Virus record (IMG/VR): IMGVR_UViG_3300042876_000637
Span: 1 to 45,023 of that record
Source of the DNA: a virus
Strand: one strand, 5' to 3'
Length of the DNA stretch: 45,023 nt
Part shown: piece after piece, positions 9,455-42,886 of the stretch
Numbering within the stretch: position 1 is the stretch's first letter
Layout: each line of letters starts with the position of its first letter
Position numbers and translations under genes: made by a program
The notes under the pieces: generated by a model
What the model saw: the letters and a program-made list of their open reading frames with translations, nothing else
Told to the model about the DNA's origin: nothing
Database searches by the model: none

Positions 9455-10892
9455 AGCCCGGCGACGGGTATTGGCATTTACGAAGTTCACCAAACCAGAC
9501 TACCAGACCAACTGGCACCATGATGTGCTGTGCGGGTATCTGGATAGGTTTGTGGCGGGAGACATCAAGCGGCTCATGATTTTCATGCCGCCCCGGCACG
9601 GCAAAAGCGAACTGGTGAGCCGCCGGTTGCCCGCTTTTATTTTTGGGCAGCGGCCCGACGCCAACGTCATCGCCTGCTCGTACAGCGCCGACCTCGCCAG
9701 CCGCATGAACCGGGATGTGCAGCGCATAATCGACTCTGACACGTACCGCCGATTATTCCCCGAGAGCCAGTTGTTTGGCGCGAATGTTCGCACGGTGGCT
9801 ACGGGTTCATACCTCCGCAACTCGGATATTTTTGAGATTGTGGGCCACAACGGATCGTACCGTAGCGCGGGCGTGGGGGGCGGCATCACCGGCATGGGCT
9901 TCCACTTCGGGATTATTGACGACCCGGTGAAGCGGCGGAAAGAGGCGGAAAGCGAAGCGTTTCGCAATAGCGTGTGGGAGTGGTATGGCAGCGACTTTTA
10001 CACGCGGCAGGAAGGCAACGGCGGCATCCTCATCACCACCACGCGGTGGCATGAGGACGATTTAGCCGGGCGCATTCTCAAACAGGCGGCGGCGGACCCC
10101 AACGCCGAGCAATGGACGGTGGTGAGTTTCCCCGCGCTGTTTGAGCCGGATATTGCTACCCCTGGTGACCCACGCCAGGACGGCGAGGCGCTATGGCCCG
10201 GCAAGTTTGACGTAGAGCGCCTGCAAAAAACGCGGGGAGTGCTGGGGCAGTATCAGTTCCAGAGCCTCTACCAGCAGCGCCCCACGGCGCGCGAAGGCAA
10301 CCGCATCAAGCGCGCCTGGCTGAGCAAGTTCGTGGACGCGGCCCCTGCCGAGGCCCGGCGTGTGCGCTACTGGGACAAGGCTGGCACGGATGACGGCGGG
10401 AAATTTACCGCCGGGGTGCTGATTGCCGAGCACGAAAAGCAGTTCTATGTGGAGCACGTGGTGCGCGGCCAATGGAGCGCATTGAACCGGGAGCGCGTCA
10501 TCCGGCAAACAGCCGAGGCCGACCGGCAGCGCGGCGCGGCGGTGGTAGCCCACTGGATTGAGCAGGAGCCGGGCAGCGGCGGCAAAGAGTCGGCGGAGAG
10601 CACCGTGCGGAACCTGGCCGGGCACACGATTCATGTGGACAAAGTGACCGGCGGCAAAGATGAACGGCTAGACCCCTTCGCGGTGCAGTGCGAGGCGGGC
10701 AATGTGTTTTTGGTGCGTGGGCAGTGGAATGAGGCCTACATTGACGAGATGGCCGCTGTGCCCAACGGCAAATACCGCGACCAAGCCGACGCCAGTGCGG
10801 GCGCGTTTAACAAACTTACCGAAGGCGGCACCGATTGGAACGATGTTTCTGGCCTCGGCCAAGTTGAGGAGTATGAGTCACGATGGAAATAA
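9381..10892 (+). CDS. terL: Terminase large subunit
   Basis: A 503-residue packaging ATPase/nuclease. Walker A is PPRHGKSEL (about 70), the adenine-side region ACSYSADLASRMN follows, and Walker B is FGIIDDP (about 177). The coupling motif is ITTTRWHEDDLAGR. The C-terminal RNase H-like nuclease starts with RYWDKAGTDDGGKFTAG (first catalytic Asp) and includes DQADASAGAFNKL (last Asp). Length and motif spacing are normal. ATG 9381 gives a 74-base overlap with the small subunit. Confidence 0.95.
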   Translation: MSSRKSPAATVTEAAAAREILRRREARRRVLAFTKFTKPDYQTNWHHDVLCGYLDRFVAGDIKRLMIFMPPRHGKSELVSRRLPAFIFGQRPDANVIACSYSADLASRMNRDVQRIIDSDTYRRLFPESQLFGANVRTVATGSYLRNSDIFEIVGHNGSYRSAGVGGGITGMGFHFGIIDDPVKRRKEAESEAFRNSVWEWYGSDFYTRQEGNGGILITTTRWHEDDLAGRILKQAAADPNAEQWTVVSFPALFEPDIATPGDPRQDGEALWPGKFDVERLQKTRGVLGQYQFQSLYQQRPTAREGNRIKRAWLSKFVDAAPAEARRVRYWDKAGTDDGGKFTAGVLIAEHEKQFYVEHVVRGQWSALNRERVIRQTAEADRQRGAAVVAHWIEQEPGSGGKESAESTVRNLAGHTIHVDKVTGGKDERLDPFAVQCEAGNVFLVRGQWNEAYIDEMAAVPNGKYRDQADASAGAFNKLTEGGTDWNDVSGLGQVEEYESRWK

Positions 10893-12892
10893 ACTACACC
10901 GAACAAGGCTCGCCCGGCGGCCTCGACCAGTTCTCCGGCTTTGTGGCGAAGGCATACAACGCCGAACTGTACTGGCCAAATGTCTTCCCGCTCTATAACC
11001 GCCTGCGCCGCAGTGACCCGGAGGTCGCGGTCGTGCGCGGGGTATTCAGCACCGTGGCGGCAGGGGTACGCATTCGGTGGGAGTTGCCCTCCAACCCCAG
11101 CGATGACGATAAAAAATTCGTGGAGTTCGGTGAGCAGGTGTTGGATGACCTGGAGGGAGGCATTGAACGCTGGCGCGACACGCTGATTAGCCAGGCCCCC
11201 TTCATGGGCTGGGCGTGGTGGGAGGCCGTGCCGGGCCTGCGCCAGACGGGCTGGACGCCGCCGGATGATGACCCGTGGCGGAGCAAATATAACGACGGGC
11301 TGATTGGGTTTCGGCGGTTGGGATTCCGCGACCACTCATCGTTCCAGCAGTGGGACTTGAACCCCAAGGGCCGCTTGCTGGGGATGTGGCAGCAAGACCC
11401 GCCCCATGCGCGCGTGCGCCTGCCGCTGGAGCAGAGCGTGCATGTGGCGTTTGGCGACGCGGATAACCCCGAAGGCCTCAGCCCGCTGGAATCCCTGTGG
11501 CGGCTGGAGCGCATCAAATACGGGCTGGAGGTCGTGCAGGGCATTGGGTATGAGCACGCGGCGGGCCACCTGAGCGTGAACAAAACTGAGAAAGGCGAAC
11601 TCACAGCCGCCGACAAAACCAACATTCGCGCGGCGGCCCGGGCCATCCTCAGCGCCCAGGAGGGCAACTATGCGGCGTGGCCCTACGGTTTCACCGGGCA
11701 GGTGATGGATGTGCCGTTCGGGTCCGCCGGTTCGATTCTCGACGCCATTCGCCATTACGCCATGCTGAAAATGGCGTTGTACAACATGCAGTGGGTGGCA
11801 ATGAGCACGCTGAGCGATAGCGGCTCGTATGCGGCGCTGAAGGACTCTAGCGCCCTGTGGCTGATGGCCTTCAACGCCATGATGACGGGCTTTGTGGGTC
11901 AGTTCGATACTCAATTTGGGGCGCGGCTGTACGAAATGAACAAGGCCGCGTTTCCGGGCGTGACCGTGCGCCCGAAGTTAGTGGCCACCAAAGCGGAGAA
12001 AGTCTATGACCTGCCCGAGCTCGCCGCGTTCATGCAGGCGATGCAGGGACTCATGCCGCTGGGCGAGGATGACCTGCTGGAGGTGCGCCGCCGGTCTGGG
12101 TTCCTGCCAGAGTCGATGCCCACCAACCCAGTGACGACGCCTACGGCGCAGAGCACCAGCGCGCCCACGCCGAATATGCCCGCAGACATGCCCCCCGCCG
12201 CTCCGTCCGCTGGCGAAATGGCCGCGCTGTATCAGGCCGCGCGCAAGCGGGTGGGGCAAATTGTGGAATTGAGCGCTGGCGGTGGGGCGCGGGCGTTGTT
12301 CGCCGAATTGGCGCGGGGGCGCGAGGTGGTGCGGGCGGCCTATGGCGACGCCATCTATGCCGCCATCCTGGAGTATCTCGCCGCGGCGGGCAGCAGCACC
12401 CAGTATAAAAACCGCGTGAAGCGGGCGGTGGTGGAATCGTTCCCCGAGGTCTTCTATCTGGCCTATGCCAGTGGGGGCGGCGAGGTGGTAGACCCCGAAG
12501 ATGACCAATGGCTGACCGCGAAAATCAACGCGGAGATGGCCTACGTTGACCTGCTTTTCCAGAGCATGAAGACGGTGAAAGACACCGCCGAAAGCGCCGA
12601 TGAGCGCCGGGCCGAGGCCAATGCCCGTGCCGATGGCTATCTGAAGACGTTGGATGCGGTGTATGCCGAGGGGCTGCTACGCGGCAAAAAAAACCGAATG
12701 CTGACGATGGTGGGCGAGGACGGGGCCGAGAGTTGCGTGGACTGCCAGCGGCACAAGGGCAAGCGTTACACGGCGCGCAAGTGGCTGCGCCTGGGCATTC
12801 CGGGCGTGCCGGGCAACGGGTGGGAGTGTGGGGGGTGGAAGTGCCAGCACGGGCTGATTGACGATGAAGGCGTTGCGTTCACGGGAGCGTAG
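10883..12892 (+). CDS. Portal protein (Mu gp29-like, DUF935) fused to a MuF-like C-terminal domain
   Basis: A 669-residue protein. Residues 1-420 match the DUF935/Mu gp29 portal family (DPEVAVVRGVFSTVAAGVRI, GLSPLESLWRLERIKYGLEV). A Pro/Thr linker follows at about 415-440. The C-terminal 200 residues end in ESCVDCQRHKGKRYTARKW and WECGGWKCQH, the Cys-rich tail found in Mu gpF-type minor head proteins. Family portals are usually near 500 residues, so this looks like a portal plus head-morphogenesis fusion. It overlaps the terminase stop by 10 bases. Confidence 0.88.
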   Translation: MEINYTEQGSPGGLDQFSGFVAKAYNAELYWPNVFPLYNRLRRSDPEVAVVRGVFSTVAAGVRIRWELPSNPSDDDKKFVEFGEQVLDDLEGGIERWRDTLISQAPFMGWAWWEAVPGLRQTGWTPPDDDPWRSKYNDGLIGFRRLGFRDHSSFQQWDLNPKGRLLGMWQQDPPHARVRLPLEQSVHVAFGDADNPEGLSPLESLWRLERIKYGLEVVQGIGYEHAAGHLSVNKTEKGELTAADKTNIRAAARAILSAQEGNYAAWPYGFTGQVMDVPFGSAGSILDAIRHYAMLKMALYNMQWVAMSTLSDSGSYAALKDSSALWLMAFNAMMTGFVGQFDTQFGARLYEMNKAAFPGVTVRPKLVATKAEKVYDLPELAAFMQAMQGLMPLGEDDLLEVRRRSGFLPESMPTNPVTTPTAQSTSAPTPNMPADMPPAAPSAGEMAALYQAARKRVGQIVELSAGGGARALFAELARGREVVRAAYGDAIYAAILEYLAAAGSSTQYKNRVKRAVVESFPEVFYLAYASGGGEVVDPEDDQWLTAKINAEMAYVDLLFQSMKTVKDTAESADERRAEANARADGYLKTLDAVYAEGLLRGKKNRMLTMVGEDGAESCVDCQRHKGKRYTARKWLRLGIPGVPGNGWECGGWKCQHGLIDDEGVAFTGA

Positions 12893-15850: not shown

Positions 15851-16819
15851 ATGCCTATTGTTCGCAGTGACATTTTGGCGCACCTGGAACGCGGGATGCG
15901 TGTGGGTTTTTTGGCGGGGCTGAAAGACTATGCCCCCAAGCGCGGGGCGTTCACGCGCACGGTGCCCAGCGATGGCGCATTTGAAATTTATGGTGACCTG
16001 GGGAGCCAACCCTGGCCGGTGCGCATGGCGGGGCAAGCGGGCGGCGGCACGGATGGCCGCACCGGTGGCCCCAGCGCGGGCGGCCTGCACGAAGGTGGCC
16101 CCATCGTGGTGTTGGGCGGCGAGGAACGCAATCTCGTGGTCTACAACTCCGACTGGGGCACGGCGGTGGGCATCTGGCACAACGCCATCAACGACGACCG
16201 CGTGGGCGGCCTGGAAGATTGGGCGCGCAACCAGGGCAAGCGTTTCGAGCAGCATAAAGATTATTTGTGCTTCGATGCGCTGAACTCCGGCGAGGCCACG
16301 ACCAACTATGGCGCGTGCTATGACGGGCTGTCGTTTTTCAATGACAGCCACTTCGACAAAGGCGCTGAGTACCAGACCGTGCAGGACAACAAGTACGCGC
16401 TCTCCCTCTCGCTGGACAATTTCGAGACGGTGCGGATTGCGGGCGGGAAGTTCAAGGATGGCCGGGGGCAACCCTACGGCGGCCTCGGTCACTCGCTGCT
16501 CGTCCACGCGCTCGACCTCGAGCGCACGGCGGCGCAAATCACCGATAACCCGCTGGCCTATGACACGGCCAATCAGGAGCGCAACCCCTACGCGGGGATG
16601 ATCCAGCGGTTGGCGGTGCCGGGGTCGTGGTTTGACTCCACCGCCTGGGTGCTCGTTGACCCGGATGTGAAGCCCATCCTGCTGCAAGAGCGCAGCGGGC
16701 CGGAGTTGATTTTCTGGGATGACTTCACCCAGGGCTCCGGCGTTCGCTATTACAAGTGGGTGGCGCGCTACTCGGTGGCCTATGGCGACTGGCGCGGGGC
16801 CATCATGGGCAATTCCTAA
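15851..16819 (+). CDS. Major capsid protein (Mu gpT-like)
   Basis: A 322-residue protein with AGGAG before ATG 15851. It matches the Mu gpT major head subunit family: GMRVGFLAGLKDYAPKRGAF at the start, GLSFFNDSHFDKG, GRGQPYGGLGHSLLVHAL, and LQERSGPELIFWDDFTQGSG near the end. Length is close to the family norm of about 305. It assembles into the HK97-fold head. Confidence 0.92.
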   Translation: MPIVRSDILAHLERGMRVGFLAGLKDYAPKRGAFTRTVPSDGAFEIYGDLGSQPWPVRMAGQAGGGTDGRTGGPSAGGLHEGGPIVVLGGEERNLVVYNSDWGTAVGIWHNAINDDRVGGLEDWARNQGKRFEQHKDYLCFDALNSGEATTNYGACYDGLSFFNDSHFDKGAEYQTVQDNKYALSLSLDNFETVRIAGGKFKDGRGQPYGGLGHSLLVHALDLERTAAQITDNPLAYDTANQERNPYAGMIQRLAVPGSWFDSTAWVLVDPDVKPILLQERSGPELIFWDDFTQGSGVRYYKWVARYSVAYGDWRGAIMGNS

Positions 16820-30554: not shown

Positions 30555-30582
30555 ATGATAGCCGACTTGTTGCCGCCGTCAA
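30555..30582 (-). promoter_or_regulatory. Promoter for the second XRE gene
   Basis: On the minus strand TTGACG (30582-30577), a 16-base spacer and TATCAT (30560-30555) form a good sigma-70 promoter. Transcription would start near 30548, about 16 bases before ATG 30532, with AAAGGA as ribosome binding site. The -35 box overlaps the stop codon of the integrase gene. Confidence 0.65.
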
Positions 30583-32102
30583 ACCGCGTATAATACGGGC
30601 TGCATTGTAGATGACAAAAGGCGGACCCTGAGGAGTTTGTTGCGCGTTGGTATCCGAATCTCGTCGGGTCCGCACGCGCTAACGATTAGCGCATGGAAAA
30701 TCGGTTGTGGCTGAATGGCTGCAACCTCGTTTTGAAAGAGAAAGGCTTTTGCGAGCACTGCTTGCATGAGCCTTTTTCTTTGCTCGTCGTCGGCCAGCGC
30801 GTATAGCTGGCCGAAATTGTTTAAGGTCTCCAGGGCGGCGGCGTAATCAGCGGCGGACGTATCAGGGGCCGGGGGCGGCGCGACGGTTGCCAGGGCTTGC
30901 TCAATTTTCTTCTTTTCGGACAAATACTCGGCGTCGGTGAGATCGCCTGCCAGATATAGATTTTTAAGGCGGCGCTGGCGCTCGAGCAGGTCGGCTTGTG
31001 CGGCGGGGGGCTGGTCGGCAACGGCTGTCTGGAGTTTTACCATGCGCTCGATTTCGCTACGCCAGTCGGCAGGGATACGAATGCCGCTCAGAATTTCTAA
31101 CACTTGGGATTCGACGTGTTCGGCACTGACCGTGGTAGTCTGCGAACACGCGATTCCCAGTTGCTTTGCCGGTTGATAGTAGCGCCGGCCGTAAATCTGG
31201 TGATTGGTGCCCCGGTAGCGCAATTCGCACTCGCGGCAATGCAGCACCCCACTGAGGGGGTAAATGCGCGTCGCGTGATTGCTGGAGTCAGCCTTGGAGC
31301 GACGGCCCGCGCGCACTGCTTGGCATTTGTCAAACGTGGCTTGGTCGGTCAGGGGGGAATGCTCGCCGGGAAACCATTCGCCCTTATAGGCCACCAGGCC
31401 AAGATAATACTTGTCCTGGAGCATGTACCGCACCGTGTCTTTGCTGAACAGTCGCCGCCCCCGCTTATTGAGCGTGCGGTAGCCGCGTTGATTGAGCAGC
31501 GCGGCAATTTCCAGGTCAGAGTATTTCCCCGTCGCGTATTCGGTGAAGGCCAGCGTGGCCCCGATTCCGTCATAGGGGTCTGGGCTATCGCGCTTGGTCA
31601 GCGGGTCGCGGCAATAGCCGAAGTGCAGGTCGCCATTGCTGCGGCCTCGCACCACGCGCCCCTTCTTCCCCCGCTGGTATTTCTCGCTCAGGTCTTTGGA
31701 ATAGTAGGCCGCGAAGTCAGCCTGAATGCGGCGCGTCAGCCACCCGCTGGCGGTTTCCTCGTCCAGGTGCTGGGTGAGGGAAACTAGCCGCACGCGATGC
31801 TGGCGCAGAAATTTGTAATGGCGCTCACTATCGTCTTCGCGGGAGAAGCGGTCAATGTTCCAGACAATCAAAATGTCGAGGCGGTGGGCCTCGACATCGG
31901 CCAGCATGGCGCGGAATTTCGGGCGCTGGTCGGTGCCGCCCCGCTGGGCTTCCTCGCGGTAAATCTCGACAATCTGCCAGCCCTCCTGTGCGGCCCGTTC
32001 CCGCCCAAGGCGCTCTTGGTCGCCGAGGCTGTAATTGTCGAGTTGGCGTTTGTCGGAAACGCGCAGGTAGATTCCGGCGCGCAGTGGGGGTTTGGTTAGC
32101 AT
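30579..32102 (-). CDS. Large serine recombinase (phage integrase)
   Basis: A 507-residue protein with AAAAGGAG before ATG 32102. The catalytic domain begins YLRVSDKRQLDNYSLGDQ, with Ser16 as nucleophile, and includes DILIVWNIDRFSR. The recombinase domain follows (GYCRDPLTKRDSPDPYDGIG, DTVRYMLQDKYYLGLVAYKG). Then come a zinc ribbon (LHCRECELRYRG) and a coiled coil (about 375-440). Domain order and length match LSR integrases such as those of phiC31 and Bxb1. The Gp3-like protein at 41705 is the matching directionality factor. The attP site was not found. Confidence 0.93.
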   Translation of the reverse strand: MLTKPPLRAGIYLRVSDKRQLDNYSLGDQERLGRERAAQEGWQIVEIYREEAQRGGTDQRPKFRAMLADVEAHRLDILIVWNIDRFSREDDSERHYKFLRQHRVRLVSLTQHLDEETASGWLTRRIQADFAAYYSKDLSEKYQRGKKGRVVRGRSNGDLHFGYCRDPLTKRDSPDPYDGIGATLAFTEYATGKYSDLEIAALLNQRGYRTLNKRGRRLFSKDTVRYMLQDKYYLGLVAYKGEWFPGEHSPLTDQATFDKCQAVRAGRRSKADSSNHATRIYPLSGVLHCRECELRYRGTNHQIYGRRYYQPAKQLGIACSQTTTVSAEHVESQVLEILSGIRIPADWRSEIERMVKLQTAVADQPPAAQADLLERQRRLKNLYLAGDLTDAEYLSEKKKIEQALATVAPPPAPDTSAADYAAALETLNNFGQLYALADDEQRKRLMQAVLAKAFLFQNEVAAIQPQPIFHALIVSACGPDEIRIPTRNKLLRVRLLSSTMQPVLYAV

Positions 32103-32123: not shown

Positions 32124-32345
32124 TTACGATTTTTTGCCGGGGCTGGCAACGGGCTGGGCGGCAAGCGCGGGCGCGCCCGCCCGTTTGGCGCGGATGATGC
32201 GCTTGCGCGCTTGATGTGGCGGGGCGAACACGTTGACGTATTTCACGCGGTTCCCACACGCTTTACACCATGTATGGAACGTGTTGTTGCGAAACGTCAC
32301 AGACACGGCCGGGGCGTCACACAGAGAGCAAATAAGATTTTTCAT
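32124..32345 (-). CDS. Small zinc-ribbon protein (first gene after the attC array)
   Basis: A 73-residue protein with two C-x2-C pairs (LICSLCDAP and WCKACGN), a classic zinc ribbon, and a basic Ala/Pro-rich tail. Its ATG is 4 bases past the core of the attC site at 32350, so it lies where a cassette gene would begin. It ends 21 bases before the integrase start. No attC follows it, so it is either the phage gene at the insertion edge or a cassette that has lost its own attC. Confidence 0.7.
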   Translation of the reverse strand: MKNLICSLCDAPAVSVTFRNNTFHTWCKACGNRVKYVNVFAPPHQARKRIIRAKRAGAPALAAQPVASPGKKS

Positions 32346-32349
32346 GGCG

Positions 32350-32444
32350 GCCTAACGGCCAGCGGTAAGGCGCACGCGCCCACCGCCAGCCACTAATTTT
32401 TTCGCCCTCTGCGGGCGCGTGTCGCCTTGACCGCATGGTTGGGC
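32350..32444 (-). other. attC recombination site 1 (integron type)
   Basis: Read on the minus strand the site runs from GCCCAAC (32444-32438) to GTTAGGC (32356-32350). The left arm GCGGTCAAGGCGACACGC pairs with the right arm GCGTGCGCCTTACCGC except for two extra bases, C and A, in the left arm. Paired RYYYAAC and GTTRRRY cores plus two extrahelical bases are the defining attC structure. Orientation matches the leftward genes. Length is 95 bp. Confidence 0.85.
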
Positions 32445-32648
32445 CGCACGGGCGAATGTGTAGGCGGCCTTGCTATTTGACCGCCACTCATGCCCGCACC
32501 GCGCACAGCGAAATACGCCACCATTGCCGGATGAACGCACGAATAAAACTGCGTTCCATGTTCGATGGCCCGTGCCTGTGGCATAGGCCAGCCAATCGCG
32601 GCGGTAGCATTGAGAGCAGCGGAGTTTTGATGTTCGCGTTTGTGCCAT
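32352..32648 (-). CDS. Cassette gene C: zinc-ribbon protein
   Basis: A 98-residue protein starting at ATG 32648, 6 bases past the core of the upstream attC (32655). Two C-x2-C pairs (LRCSQCYRRD, FRCARCGHEW) form a zinc ribbon. The frame has no stop before attC and runs right through attC 1, ending in its final core (GTTAG), so the last 30 residues are encoded by the recombination site. No Shine-Dalgarno is visible. Function is unknown. Confidence 0.65.
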   Translation of the reverse strand: MAQTRTSKLRCSQCYRRDWLAYATGTGHRTWNAVLFVRSSGNGGVFRCARCGHEWRSNSKAAYTFARAAQPCGQGDTRPQRAKKLVAGGGRVRLTAGR

Positions 32649-32654
32649 AGTGCG

Positions 32655-32746
32655 GCCCAACGAATGGGCGTAAGCGGTGCGCGCCTTACGCTACTTGTGG
32701 TTTCCGGGTGCGCGTGGCGCGCATCCGCTTGACGACAGGGTTAGGC
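32655..32746 (-). other. attC recombination site 2
   Basis: On the minus strand GCCTAAC (32746-32740) opens the site and GTTGGGC (32661-32655) closes it. The left arm GTCAAGCGGATGCGCGCC pairs with the right arm GGCGCGCACCGCTTAC, leaving two extrahelical bases, C and A, at the same relative positions as in site 1. Length is 92 bp. Confidence 0.87.
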
Positions 32747-32930
32747 AGATTTGATTTGCCCAGGCACTTTCTGCCGCGTCTGCTAATAATTTCCCGCCGT
32801 TTGCACAGTCATCGCAAAGCGCGAGCGGAAAAATGGTGTCGTTGTACAGGGTTACAGTCGCCTTATTTTTGCAGCGCAACGGTTCGTGGTAGTCGTCTGG
32901 CGTGCTGTAAATTTCGTTTTGGCATTGCAT
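32691..32930 (-). CDS. Cassette gene B: small Cys-containing protein
   Basis: A 79-residue protein from ATG 32930, 9 bases past the upstream attC core. Cys residues in MQCQNE, LRCKNK and LCDDCANG suggest a metal site. The reading frame enters attC 2 and stops in its apical loop, so about 20 C-terminal residues are attC-encoded. No family recognised. Confidence 0.6.
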   Translation of the reverse strand: MQCQNEIYSTPDDYHEPLRCKNKATVTLYNDTIFPLALCDDCANGGKLLADAAESAWANQICLTLSSSGCAPRAPGNHK

Positions 32931-32939
32931 GGACAATCT

Positions 32940-33035
32940 GCCTAACGATTCGCTTCAGTGGCTTGCCGCCACGTCAGCACTCGGTTCAATCTCGCCGCCA
33001 GCGGGCGGCAAGTCCACTGCAAGCGGGGGTTGGGC
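32940..33035 (-). other. attC recombination site 3
   Basis: On the minus strand GCCCAAC (33035-33029) opens and GTTAGGC (32946-32940) closes the site. The left arm GCTTGCAGTGGACTTGCC pairs with the right arm GGCAAGCCACTGAAGC with two extrahelical bases, G and A. Length is 96 bp. The loop differs from the other two sites, so these are independent cassettes, not copies of one. Confidence 0.87.
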
Positions 33036-33200
33036 GGCGGCCTTGAGTAGATTGGCGCATTTATCAACAACGCGCCACGACGCGCCCACAGGCGGGGCAA
33101 ACAACGAAACCAGATACGGGTCACACTGCGCCGCTAATTTGCGCCAGTCATCCCACGCGGCGCGATTGTTCCACCACTGAGAATAGAGAGCGTTTGCCAT
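32955..33200 (-). CDS. Cassette gene A: small unknown protein
   Basis: An 81-residue protein from ATG 33200, 11 bases past the core GTTGGGC at 33212. The N-terminal 50 residues (WWNNRAAWDDWRKLAAQCDP) are Trp-rich and look folded. The last 30 residues (AAAQPPLAVDLPPAGGEIEP onward) are encoded by attC 3. No family recognised. Confidence 0.6.
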   Translation of the reverse strand: MANALYSQWWNNRAAWDDWRKLAAQCDPYLVSLFAPPVGASWRVVDKCANLLKAAAQPPLAVDLPPAGGEIEPSADVAASH

Positions 33201-33211
33201 AGAAGTAAGCC

Positions 33212-33246
33212 GCCCAACCTATAAATAGACTGCACGCCGCAGTCTA
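33212..33246 (-). other. Upstream core site and hairpin at the start of the cassette array
   Basis: GTTGGGC on the minus strand (33218-33212) is the insertion core in front of cassette A. Directly upstream TAGACTGC (33246-33239) and GCAGTCTA (33233-33226) form an 8-bp hairpin. There is no full attC here, so this may be the original insertion point (attI-like or secondary site) or a decayed attC. Confidence 0.5.
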
Positions 33247-35249: not shown

Positions 35250-36449
35250 TCAATGCTCCAGCGCGATACCGAGTAAATTCTGAACAGCACCAGACCGGTG
35301 CGTTTGCGGGATGAGCACCGTTGCGTCCGGGTCAGCATCGCTCCAGCGGTTGGGATAAGTGCGGGCGGCGATGAGTTCGCGGATGCGCGCCTCTTCTTCG
35401 TCGTTGATGAGGTCAATGAGCGGGCGGCCCAGTTCGTCGGCAGCCACGTTGATTTGCTCCTGCACATCCAGCACCTTTTGCAATGCCCATTCGCGGGCTT
35501 CGAGCGTGAGCGGGCCTTTACGGCTTGGGTTGCTGGACAGTTCCCCGCCTTTGTTGCGTTCGCCGTTCTTCTGCTTGCGGAGACGAAAAGAGCGCAGTTC
35601 GGAGTAGAGTGGGCGCAGGCGCTTGAGCGGTTGCAGGTAGGCCCAATCCGGTTGGCTGAGCACGTTATCAAGGGCGGCGTCTTTGGTTGCGAGGGGGCAA
35701 CCGATGCAGCCGGTGCGCGCATTGATTTCCTCGGCTTCCTCACCGCCGTAGACCTGTGCCACAAATGAGACCGATGGGGCAATGGTGGGCGCGTCAAATG
35801 TCAGCCAGTCCCAGACATGGCAAACACGCCAGTGGAGAATGGGGGCCAGCGTATCGGCCACGGATTCGGGGGTTGATTCCTGAAACCAGCCTTGCCCACA
35901 CTCCGCGCCGTTGCGCCCACACGAAAGCGCAATGCGGGCGTCACGGGCGGCGCTTTCGCCCACCCGAACGCCGGTGAGCATGAGGAACTTTTCGCCGTGG
36001 GCGTCACGGAGGCCCTTGAGCGCGGCCAACATCGGCTCAACTTTGATTTGAGCGGTACACCAGCGGAGCGTGTTGTTGTTAGGCGGCGGCACACCCCGCC
36101 CGAGCATGTAAACGAAGTAGCGGTCATCGAGCGGCGGCAGCACCACGCGGGCGGTGTGGCCCAGAGCGCGCACCGATTCGAGCGTTTGCATCGCCCCGAT
36201 GTGCAGAGGCGGGATTTCCTGGCGCGTGTCGCTGTAGAGCACGGTTAGCGACTGCGGGGCAGTGACGCGGCCAGTCTCGATGAGGTGGAGCACAACGGTG
36301 AGTAGCGCACTGCTGTCTTTGCCCCCGCTGTAGGCGATAGCCCAGTGCTGATAAAACGCGGCATAAGCGTTGAGCGACTGCGCCGTGAGTTCAATAGAGT
36401 CGGCCAATGTGAGACGTTTATCGTCGAAAAGGCTGGCTTGTTTACGCAT
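35250..36449 (-). CDS. PAPS reductase/DndC-like sulfur-transfer enzyme
   Basis: A 399-residue protein, ATG 36449 chosen because the upstream 260 bases belong to the primase gene. The PP-loop AIAYSGGKDSSALLTVVLHL (S41-S46) binds ATP. LRWCTAQIK, GVRVGESAARDARI and RTGCIGCPLATKD follow the DndC/PAPS-reductase order, with Cys residues placed for an Fe-S cluster. DndC works in DNA phosphorothioation with DndA, D and E, none of which is here. Many phages carry such solitary PAPS-reductase-like genes of unknown use. Confidence 0.82.
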   Translation of the reverse strand: MRKQASLFDDKRLTLADSIELTAQSLNAYAAFYQHWAIAYSGGKDSSALLTVVLHLIETGRVTAPQSLTVLYSDTRQEIPPLHIGAMQTLESVRALGHTARVVLPPLDDRYFVYMLGRGVPPPNNNTLRWCTAQIKVEPMLAALKGLRDAHGEKFLMLTGVRVGESAARDARIALSCGRNGAECGQGWFQESTPESVADTLAPILHWRVCHVWDWLTFDAPTIAPSVSFVAQVYGGEEAEEINARTGCIGCPLATKDAALDNVLSQPDWAYLQPLKRLRPLYSELRSFRLRKQKNGERNKGGELSSNPSRKGPLTLEAREWALQKVLDVQEQINVAADELGRPLIDLINDEEEARIRELIAARTYPNRWSDADPDATVLIPQTHRSGAVQNLLGIALEH

Positions 36450-37374
36450 GGAATAAACTCCCAATGTCGGCCTTTTCGGGCGCGGTGAGGGGCCATTCGT
36501 AGATGATGGCGGGAATGCCAGCGGCGCGCAGGCGGGTGGCGAGTTTGATGCCGCTGAGAAAAGCCGTCTCGTCATCTGGCAAATGGCGGGCGCGCCGGCG
36601 CGTCTTCCACGCGGCAATAATGGCGGGGTTGCGCGTCTGGCCAGGCACGTCGTTATCAAAGCCGATGATGACGGCGCTGGGCTGGGCGGCCTTGAGCGCG
36701 GCGGTGTAGCCATCGTTCCAGATGCTCACGCCGAAGGTGGCGACGGCAGCCATGTGCCAGTGGTCGCCGCACAGCAGGGCATCAATTGGGTTTTCCAGGA
36801 TGGCGACCGGCTGGGCGGGCTGCACGCTGGCAAGGTTGTAAAGCGCCAGTTTGCTGCCGCCGGGCGAAAGCCACTTCGGGCACTGGCACTCCACCGCGCG
36901 GCAGCGGAATCCAATCACATCCTCGCCATCAAAAATCGGCACAATCAGGCGCGGGTGGTCACAGCGCCCAGCCGCGTGATGCAGCCCGCCGGGAAACACG
37001 CCGTAGCCAAGTTTGTGTGCGCGGATGGTGGGCACCAGCAGCGGCTTGTAAGCCTGCCACTTTTGCGCGGCCAGCGGCGCGGCGGAAAACGAGATGGCGA
37101 GTTCACTGGCGCGGGCCTGCCACGGGCGCGGCTTGGGCGCGGGGGGCATGTAGGCTGGGGCCGAGGTGGGGCGCGTGTCGTGCATCCCCAGTTTTTCGGC
37201 GAGGGCGGATAGTGAGGGGGAGTATCCACAGAGGAAGCAATGCGCCCCGCGCGGGCCAAATGAGAAATGCGCTTTGGGCTTGCCGCATTGGGGGCAGGGG
37301 ATGTACACCTCGCCTTTGCGGTTCGGCGTCCGGTTGACGTAGGTGGTCAGGGCAGAGAAAAGTTCGGCGCTCAT
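36442..37374 (-). CDS. DNA primase with zinc ribbon and Toprim domain
   Basis: A 310-residue protein from ATG 37374 (ATGA overlap). Cys27, Cys30, Cys46 and Cys49 (YIPCPQCGK and HCFLCGYS) form the zinc ribbon. The Toprim domain has VAILENPIDALLCGD with the catalytic Glu and VIIGFDNDVPGQ with the DxD. It makes primers for phage replication together with the helicases upstream. Confidence 0.88.
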   Translation of the reverse strand: MSAELFSALTTYVNRTPNRKGEVYIPCPQCGKPKAHFSFGPRGAHCFLCGYSPSLSALAEKLGMHDTRPTSAPAYMPPAPKPRPWQARASELAISFSAAPLAAQKWQAYKPLLVPTIRAHKLGYGVFPGGLHHAAGRCDHPRLIVPIFDGEDVIGFRCRAVECQCPKWLSPGGSKLALYNLASVQPAQPVAILENPIDALLCGDHWHMAAVATFGVSIWNDGYTAALKAAQPSAVIIGFDNDVPGQTRNPAIIAAWKTRRRARHLPDDETAFLSGIKLATRLRAAGIPAIIYEWPLTAPEKADIGSLFHA

Positions 37375-41234: not shown

Positions 41235-41708
41235 TCAAAACGGGAGTTCGTCGTCGTCTGCGTAGGCGTCAATCTGCTCTGCGAGCAGCAGGTCAGCCGC
41301 ATGGTCGGCGAGCGCGCCAGTGTCGTCCCGTTCGGCGTCGGCGGATGGGTCGTCGTCGCGCCCCCCCAGGGCGGATGCCATGCGGTCGCGGATGAGCCAT
41401 TCGATGGCGCGGCGCTCGACGGACAGGGATTCGATGTCGGATTCGATGGCGCTCAGTTCGTCGGCGGTTTCAGACTGCATGTCGCGCAGCGCCTTGAGCG
41501 CCGGGTCGTCAGCCTCGGCGCGCTGGCGGGCTAGGCTCCGCATCTCCTCATTTTTGCCCGGCCAGCCGTCCGCTGGGGCCAAGGCCAGCACGCGGGCGGC
41601 ATAGTCGCTCTGCTGATGCGAGAGTTCGATTTGGTGGTCACGGCGGGCGCGGATGAGCGTGCCCAGCGTGGCGGCAATTTCGATTAGGCGGGTAGATGAG
41701 GCGTTCAT
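41235..41708 (-). CDS. Coiled-coil protein with SSB-like acidic C-terminal tip
   Basis: A 157-residue helical protein (QSETADELSAIESDIESLSV). It ends in YADDDELPF, which closely matches the C-terminal tip of bacterial SSB (DDDIPF) that docks many repair and replication proteins. There is no OB fold, so it is not an SSB. It may recruit the host proteins that normally bind SSB. It overlaps the stop of the RDF gene (ATGA). Confidence 0.65.
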   Translation of the reverse strand: MNASSTRLIEIAATLGTLIRARRDHQIELSHQQSDYAARVLALAPADGWPGKNEEMRSLARQRAEADDPALKALRDMQSETADELSAIESDIESLSVERRAIEWLIRDRMASALGGRDDDPSADAERDDTGALADHAADLLLAEQIDAYADDDELPF

Positions 41709-42886
41709 GCGGCCTCCAGCGTGACGGCGGCGGCTTCGTCTTTGAGGTTGGCGAGCGTGTTCACAGCGGCCTCGATGGTGTCGTCGTTGTCAGGCCAGCC
41801 GAAGTCGGCGGGGAGAATTTCTTTGGCGCGGGTGACAAGCGCGGCGTGCAGGGCGCGCCCAGCGGCGATGTACTGCTCTGACGCGGCCCCTTGCGGGATA
41901 GCATCGGCCTTGATGCCGAGCGCGATTTTCCATTGCCAGAGCGTGTTCCAACGCTCTTTGAGTTTTTCGAGTGACGCGAGTTTTTTGCCGTTCCCGTTCC
42001 CGTTGGATGCCGTGGGCTGCGTTTGCGCGGCGGCCTTATGCGAGTTGGAGAGCGGCTTGGCGGGCTCGCGGATAGAATCCGCTCTTACTGGCTGCGCGGG
42101 TTGCGCGGATTGGCGCGGGGCCGGCAGCGCGGGCATGGGGGCGGGTTCGGCCAGCACGTACTCACCGGTAGTGGCGTCAACCACTTCAGGCGCGGGCAGG
42201 TCGAGGGCGGCGGCGCGGGCCAGGGCAATCTCGCGGCGCATAAAGGCGGCGTCTGGCTCGATTTTGACCAGCCATTTGTCGGTGCGCTGGCGCTGGCCCT
42301 GGCGGTCGCCCCACCCCGGCACGCTGATTTTTTCCTGCTGGCGATAGAGGCGGAAGGCCACACCGCTCAGCCGGGCGTGCTTGCGCTCCAGACCGGCCAG
42401 GACGCCCGCGATAAACACGATGTCGTTGATGGAGTGGGTCTCCATCACCACGGTGCCCACATACCCCGCCTGTAACAACTGCGGCACCACAAATTCCAAG
42501 CGCCCCACCGCGTCGCGGCGCGGGTCGCCTTTTTCGTGCCCGCCGGTGCAAGGGCGCTGACCCTTGACCATCTTGTCCCCATCGCGCCAGATGGTCATCA
42601 TCTCGCCGTCGCAGCGGTGCTCCAGGCCAGACGAGCTCCACAGTTCCACCCAGGTGGTGAAGTTTTCGGCGGCGGTTTCGTAAGGCAGGTAGATGGTCAG
42701 TTCGCGGGGGGGCTTGGGGAAAGCGGCGTTCCACGCGGCCAGCGCTTCGGGGTTGTCGCTGGTGAAACGGAAGTGGTCGAGGTCGGGGCCGTAGCCCTTG
42801 CTGGTCTTTTCGCCGCCCTTGCGTAGCTTGCCGAGGCGCGGCAAGCGGGGAAGCAAGCTTTCGGGGTCAGTCAGGTTCTTAATCAT
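41705..42886 (-). CDS. Gp3-like recombination directionality factor
   Basis: A 393-residue protein with AGGAG before ATG 42886. LDHFRFTSDNPEALAAWNAA, GLEHRCDGEMMTIWRDGD, GRLEFVVPQLLQAGYVG and METHSINDIVFIAGVLAG follow the order of the phiC31 gp3 family. Gp3 binds the serine integrase and switches it to excision. The middle (about 255-310) is a Pro/Ala/Gln linker. Expression in the early operon fits a role at prophage induction. Confidence 0.82.
   Translation of the reverse strand: MIKNLTDPESLLPRLPRLGKLRKGGEKTSKGYGPDLDHFRFTSDNPEALAAWNAAFPKPPRELTIYLPYETAAENFTTWVELWSSSGLEHRCDGEMMTIWRDGDKMVKGQRPCTGGHEKGDPRRDAVGRLEFVVPQLLQAGYVGTVVMETHSINDIVFIAGVLAGLERKHARLSGVAFRLYRQQEKISVPGWGDRQGQRQRTDKWLVKIEPDAAFMRREIALARAAALDLPAPEVVDATTGEYVLAEPAPMPALPAPRQSAQPAQPVRADSIREPAKPLSNSHKAAAQTQPTASNGNGNGKKLASLEKLKERWNTLWQWKIALGIKADAIPQGAASEQYIAAGRALHAALVTRAKEILPADFGWPDNDDTIEAAVNTLANLKDEAAAVTLEAA

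Follow-up and report, generated by a model that had tools for sequence, protein, structure and literature searches.

A predicted three-cassette CALIN in the genome of an apparently temperate tailed phage

We analyzed a stretch of 45,023 bases (the window) that is identical with one whole virus record, and found on its minus strand three attC sites that we read, from their sequence, as an integrase-free array (CALIN) inside a phage. The explanation we consider highly probable is a three-cassette CALIN in a temperate tailed phage, whose cassettes would have been assembled by IntI acting in trans. CALINs are recognized by a threshold of two or more attC sites without IntI (PMC9024848), and we assign the array to them because the record holds three attC sites within 0.7 kb and no IntI. 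A search for tyrosine recombinases (PF00589) matched all 14 of the 14 control genomes but nothing in the record; the sequence-only reading of this DNA, which had proposed an integrase-free array in a phage, was thus right on both counts. As for a complete integron, no intI1, attI or Pc promoter was found in the record, which may be a fragment.

attC sites and the cassettes they close

The array consists of the following elements, where R1 and R2 denote the covariance models described below:

33212-33218, minus strand: lone GTTRRRY core (GTTGGGC), the 5' end of cassette A, which opens the array; pairs at 10 of 10 bases with the core at the 3' end of that cassette
32946-33217, minus strand: cassette A, 272 bp (TTGGGC...G), bounded by G^TTRRRY
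32940-33035, minus strand: attC site 3, which ends cassette A, of the Anaerolineae-like GCTTGCA type; R2 40.5 bits, E 7.2e-9; strict architecture
32661-32945, minus strand: cassette B, 285 bp; own cores complementary over 12 bases
32655-32746, minus strand: attC site 2, which ends cassette B; R1 28.7 bits, E 5e-5
32356-32660, minus strand: cassette C, 305 bp; own cores complementary over 12 bases
32350-32444, minus strand: attC site 1, which ends cassette C; R1 38.0 bits, E 1.8e-7

On the minus strand the sites start with GCCCAAC (sites 1 and 3) or GCCTAAC (site 2) and end with GTTAGGC (sites 1 and 3) or GTTGGGC (site 2), the outer boxes RYYYAAC and GTTRRRY being present in all three. When folded, each site forms long pairing arms, the 5' arm carrying exactly two additional bases with six pairs between them; these extrahelical bases are C and A for site 1 as well as site 2, and G and A for site 3. 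The sequence-only reading had given the same coordinates, the same RYYYAAC and GTTRRRY ends and the lone core GTTGGGC, all of which agree with the re-verified letters, as well as two extra left-arm bases per site (C and A, C and A, G and A), which our folds bear out.

A stem-scoring scan for RYYYAAC...GTTRRRY exceeded its threshold only at these three places, with scores of 28-38 in cassette orientation; 100 shuffles, used as the control, gave a mean of 0.31 matches at a score of at least 18, with one best at 29. We additionally defined a strict architecture of at least three pairs, an unpaired base, six pairs, a second unpaired base and at least four pairs, the two unpaired bases lying on the 5' arm and the whole between RYYYAAC and GTTRRRY. 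Exactly three stretches in 45 kb match it, namely sites 1-3 in cassette orientation, compared with none in 1000 dinucleotide shuffles (both strands) and none in TerL- and helicase-related phage loci. Class 1 attC sites already known fit this layout; in attC-aadA1, too, the two unpaired bases sit on the 5' arm with six pairs between them. The folds and the strict scan, with matches on the minus strand only, describe an imperfect palindrome with strand polarity. The possibility that the sites are identical copies of one unrelated repeat, which had been named as evidence against an array, was checked and does not hold: they are only 60-62% identical in pairwise comparison (about 52% for shuffled sequence), with structure conserved and sequence hardly so.

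We built covariance model R1 from nine resistance-cassette attC sites with the loop cut out. In the window it gave only two matches, sites 1 and 2, at full length and on the minus (cassette) strand only, and it gave zero matches over 1.1 Mb of related phage loci. R1 recovers known cassette attC sites and, at 244-293 of phage TJE1, a single site whose 23.7 bits lie below the 38.0 and 28.7 bits of the window sites; our first attC detector had missed the TJE1 attC sites, so exact-core scanning is incompletely sensitive. With filters off, R1 matches were worse and truncated, the long loops presumably exceeding its window. Site 3, whose first unpaired base is G like that of attC-cmlA1, was missed by R1. 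Model R2, built from site-3-like attC sites of Anaerolineae genomes, gives site 3 a score of 40.5 bits and has no other match with E below 0.4 in the window. Its E-value of 7.2e-9 for site 3 is optimistic, since a pattern drawn from site 3 served to choose the training sites; the strict-architecture test of site 3 is independent of R2. The covariance-model check that had been suggested for the array therefore came out in its favor, with R1 matching sites 1 and 2 and R2, in part trained on sites chosen through site 3, matching the third. Rfam models at their gathering thresholds returned nothing.

Scanning Anaerolineae integron regions, we found an attC type that shares the GCTTGCA...TGAAGC arms of site 3. 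This pattern occurs at 15 sites in 12 of 298 Anaerolineae genomes, with no occurrence of the reversed pattern, and in 2 of 274 Gammaproteobacteria (Fisher p 0.013 for the comparison between the two groups, whose genome sizes differ). The Anaerolineae loci L298-L312 display a distinct attC type common to genomes of this class, with G as the first unpaired base (GCTTGCANNNGA...TGAAGC). Anaerolineae chromosomal integrons are thus like the present array in the type of site 3; they differ from it in lying in bacterial genomes, some with IntI nearby, whereas sites 1 and 2 of the window are of the general TCAAG type.

In integron arrays the core that follows an attC belongs to the next cassette, which predicts a closer match of a unit's 3' core to the core opening that unit than to the one behind it. 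We found own-core complementary runs of 10, 12 and 12 bases in cassettes A, B and C, versus 3 bases with the next core. When every pair of cores in the window is compared, complementarity over 12 bases is confined to cassettes B and C, while runs of 10 arise a few times by chance. The same comparison for 21 neighboring pairs from other fetched arrays gave own above next in 15 and own below next in 2. The three units are therefore gene cassettes, bounded by G^TTRRRY and with complementary ends of their own, and the runs of 10, 12 and 12 against 3 are direct evidence of formerly independent units that became linked at G^TTRRRY. In the other arrays scanned, end complementarity often extends beyond the 7-base cores (10-13 bases) and tracks the cassette rather than its neighbor, and such extended complementarity might serve for phasing cassettes. 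Covariance models, architecture, strand asymmetry and cassette phase all support the prediction that the three sites are attC.

The phage, its cassette genes and its candidate host

Outside the array, the window encodes the following phage functions:

9381-10892: terminase large subunit
10883-12892: portal
15851-16819: major head protein
30579-32102, minus strand: large serine integrase, 507 aa, with Resolvase, Recombinase and Zn_ribbon_recom domains; phrog_95
41705-42886, minus strand: Gp3-like recombination directionality factor (RDF); PF18897, E 1.1e-21

Because terminase, portal, major head protein (capsid), serine integrase and RDF are all encoded, the contig is, by its predicted genes, a temperate tailed phage. 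No terminal repeat of at least 15 bases was found in the 45,023-base record. The window also carries a PAPS-reductase-like phage gene at 35250-36713 (phrog_12882, E 3.3e-158).

The array lies inside a leftward gene block, just upstream of the serine integrase with one small gene between, and its surroundings include these features:

33226-33246, minus strand: hairpin by folding, with a stem of 8 bp and a loop of 5 bases, located 7 bases beyond the lone core on the outer side of the array
32955-33200, minus strand: putative cassette A ORF, 81 aa, overlapping its attC by 81 nt; no family match
32691-32930, minus strand: putative cassette B ORF, 79 aa, Cys-rich; no family match
32352-32648, minus strand: putative cassette C ORF, 98 aa, zinc-ribbon-like; sub-threshold matches
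32124-32345, minus strand: zinc-ribbon-like ORF, 73 aa, without an attC of its own, starting 4 bases past the last core

The start codons of the ORFs in A, B and C and of the 73-aa ORF follow the four cores by 11, 9, 6 and 4 bases, in agreement with the spacing of 4-11 bases proposed earlier. The claim that the array adjoins the serine integrase gene holds in part: the two are near each other, but the 73-aa ORF stands between them and the integrase is the next gene but one. This ORF has a weak match to phrog_6422, a Lar-like restriction-alleviation family (E 0.0011), and is either a resident phage gene or a truncated last cassette. The three predicted cassette ORFs (32352-33200) extend 56-93 nt into attC, through most of each site. 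Searches of Pfam, PHROGs, NCBIfam and PADLOC gave no convincing family for them; our best guess at function, from CxxC motifs, is small zinc-binding accessory proteins. The hairpin at 33226-33246, which received no terminator call in a terminator scan, recalls the palindrome beside the TJE1 CALIN (PMC9892861).

We found no near matches among phage records, and no relatives in IMG/VR by the serine integrase or by the cassette A, B or C proteins. Searches with TerL, MCP and helicase recovered phages that share single modules only, none of which carries attC, and no close relative turned up, either carrying the array or lacking it. The MCP profile had no match in GTDB genomes, and MCP matches in Anaerolineae were weak only (24-32%). 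The best TerL match by identity in GTDB genomes is a 175-aa fragment at 69% on a contig of an Anaerolineae MAG (L242); the attC model had no match in the genome of that contig. Homologues of the serine integrase in Anaerolineae are near full length at 32-38% identity, IntI exceeds the curated cut-off in 73 of 298 genomes of this class (that of the best TerL match), and integrons are known in Chloroflexota (PMC8618304). Taking the TerL fragment, the integrase homologues, the IntI frequency and the known Chloroflexota integrons as a weak hint, we regard an Anaerolineae host as plausible. The suggestion that the cassettes came from a host integron is likewise plausible and is partly supported. 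Three weak matches of cassette C in Anaerolineae were judged on inspection to be compositional chance. An archaeal host was considered on account of a Methanomicrobiales virus TerL (55%, the best among annotated phage records) and set aside, the Anaerolineae fragment being closer at 69%.

Route of entry into the phage

The cassettes would have been assembled by IntI in trans, most likely from an integron-bearing host, for which Anaerolineae is our hint. IntI would join the folded bottom strand of attC (the plus strand of the window) to a GTT-containing phage site, attG- or attI-like; alternatively, pieces of a host array may have been captured. Off-target insertion, loss of intI and rearrangement have all been proposed as origins of CALINs (PMC8618304). 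Cassette insertion at off-target attG sites, for which PMC12901181 and PMC11023631 cite Loot et al. 2024, might on those citations explain how a host IntI could place cassettes in a phage genome. We found no empty phage site for an attG comparison; if the cassettes were inserted, the empty site is predicted to read ...GTCTATTTATAG then GTTAGGCCGCCATGAAAAATC..., or in its flank form ...GTCTATTTATAG, then GTTAGGC, CGCCATGAAAAATC, and so exact a prediction makes the insertion route testable. Lying co-directional with phage transcription, the cassette genes would be readable from the phage transcript.

Instead of being inserted by IntI, the array could have been picked up as a finished unit from an integron in the host chromosome, through an illegitimate recombination event or when a prophage excised imprecisely, which we hold to be possible but not probable. 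Such capture has been described for Vibrio anguillarum prophages (Qi et al. 2023, PMC9892861). The present array is close to the phage integrase gene, and a gene without attC follows its last core, as in a cut array; however, it sits inside the genome, flanked left and right by genes of its own orientation, rather than at a prophage end. Sedentary integrons carry arrays that are near-uniform in attC, unlike the three diverse sites observed here (60-62% identity). Given this diversity and the interior, co-directional position, we slightly favor a host IntI having inserted the cassettes at a phage GTT site over capture.

A chimeric assembly, in which phage DNA was joined to a bacterial integron, appears a very improbable origin of the contig: the virus record comes without reads and its junctions without a confirming near relative, but the array spans only 0.87 kb with co-directional genes of one block at both flanks, the base composition of the cassettes (0.54-0.62) matches that of the phage (0.61), and other attC-matching IMG/VR contigs also carry phage genes. 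Hairpins are common between small genes and the phage is GC-rich, but chance look-alikes of attC (unrelated hairpins from terminators, from a dispersed repeat or from a regulatory repeat of the phage) are more improbable still and in the main refuted by the 0 of 1000 shuffles with strict architecture, the specific and one-stranded covariance matches, the cassette phase (own cores 10-12, next 3) and sites that are not copies of one another.

Cassette arrays in other phages and what they may mean

Phage CALINs were already published in 2023, with 17 CALINs among 10,705 phage genomes, including those of Tetrasphaera phage TJE1, Polaribacter phage P12002L and Pseudoalteromonas phage PH101, and with 5 of 6 assayed phage attC sites recombining with attI1 through IntI1 (Qi et al. 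2023, PMC9892861); the present array is thus another member and the phenomenon is not new. Like the window, those genomes hold integrase-free arrays of small cassettes, in one direction in TJE1 and PH101, but the phages assayed were virulent, whereas the present phage is predicted to be temperate, with a serine integrase and an RDF. Compared with class 1 cassettes (aadA1, aadA2, cmlA1 and others), our array shares the R''-L''-L'-R' layout with two unpaired bases six pairs apart, and differs in being without intI1, attI and Pc and in having cassette genes without known function.

A pattern scan of IMG/VR with one attC pattern yielded at least 120 stretches (L097-L216), and R1 confirms attC sites in most of the 94 IMG/VR loci searched. 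Among ten large neighboring proteins sampled, eight, from 7 of 9 contigs, have known phage functions (terminase, portal, head or DNA polymerase). Many of these stretches are multi-attC arrays, some of them beside terminase (L165), portal (L100), DNA polymerase (L144) and virion genes (L118 and L150). One 4.5-kb stretch with about ten attC sites (L142) may be a piece of a bacterial integron wrongly recorded as viral. Arrays of attC thus look common in uncultivated phages, although some contigs may be bacterial, and since attC-bearing IMG/VR contigs are this numerous, phage cassette arrays probably extend far beyond the 21 phages of the 2023 publication.

Given IntI in the cell, the cassettes would be excisable and movable to attI; that the phage may spread them, an inference of the sequence-only reading, is partly supported. 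Phages would thereby be a further route for integron cassettes between bacteria, besides plasmids and transposons, and a temperate one such as this, equipped to integrate into a chromosome by itself, could bring cassettes there directly. More speculatively, and rather against the odds as we judge them, the phage lineage may act as a cassette shuttle, with host IntI loading and unloading cassettes at a fixed GTT site in an operon of the phage; if this were true, the phage would sample the cassette genes of its hosts and carry them between integron-bearing bacteria such as Anaerolineae.
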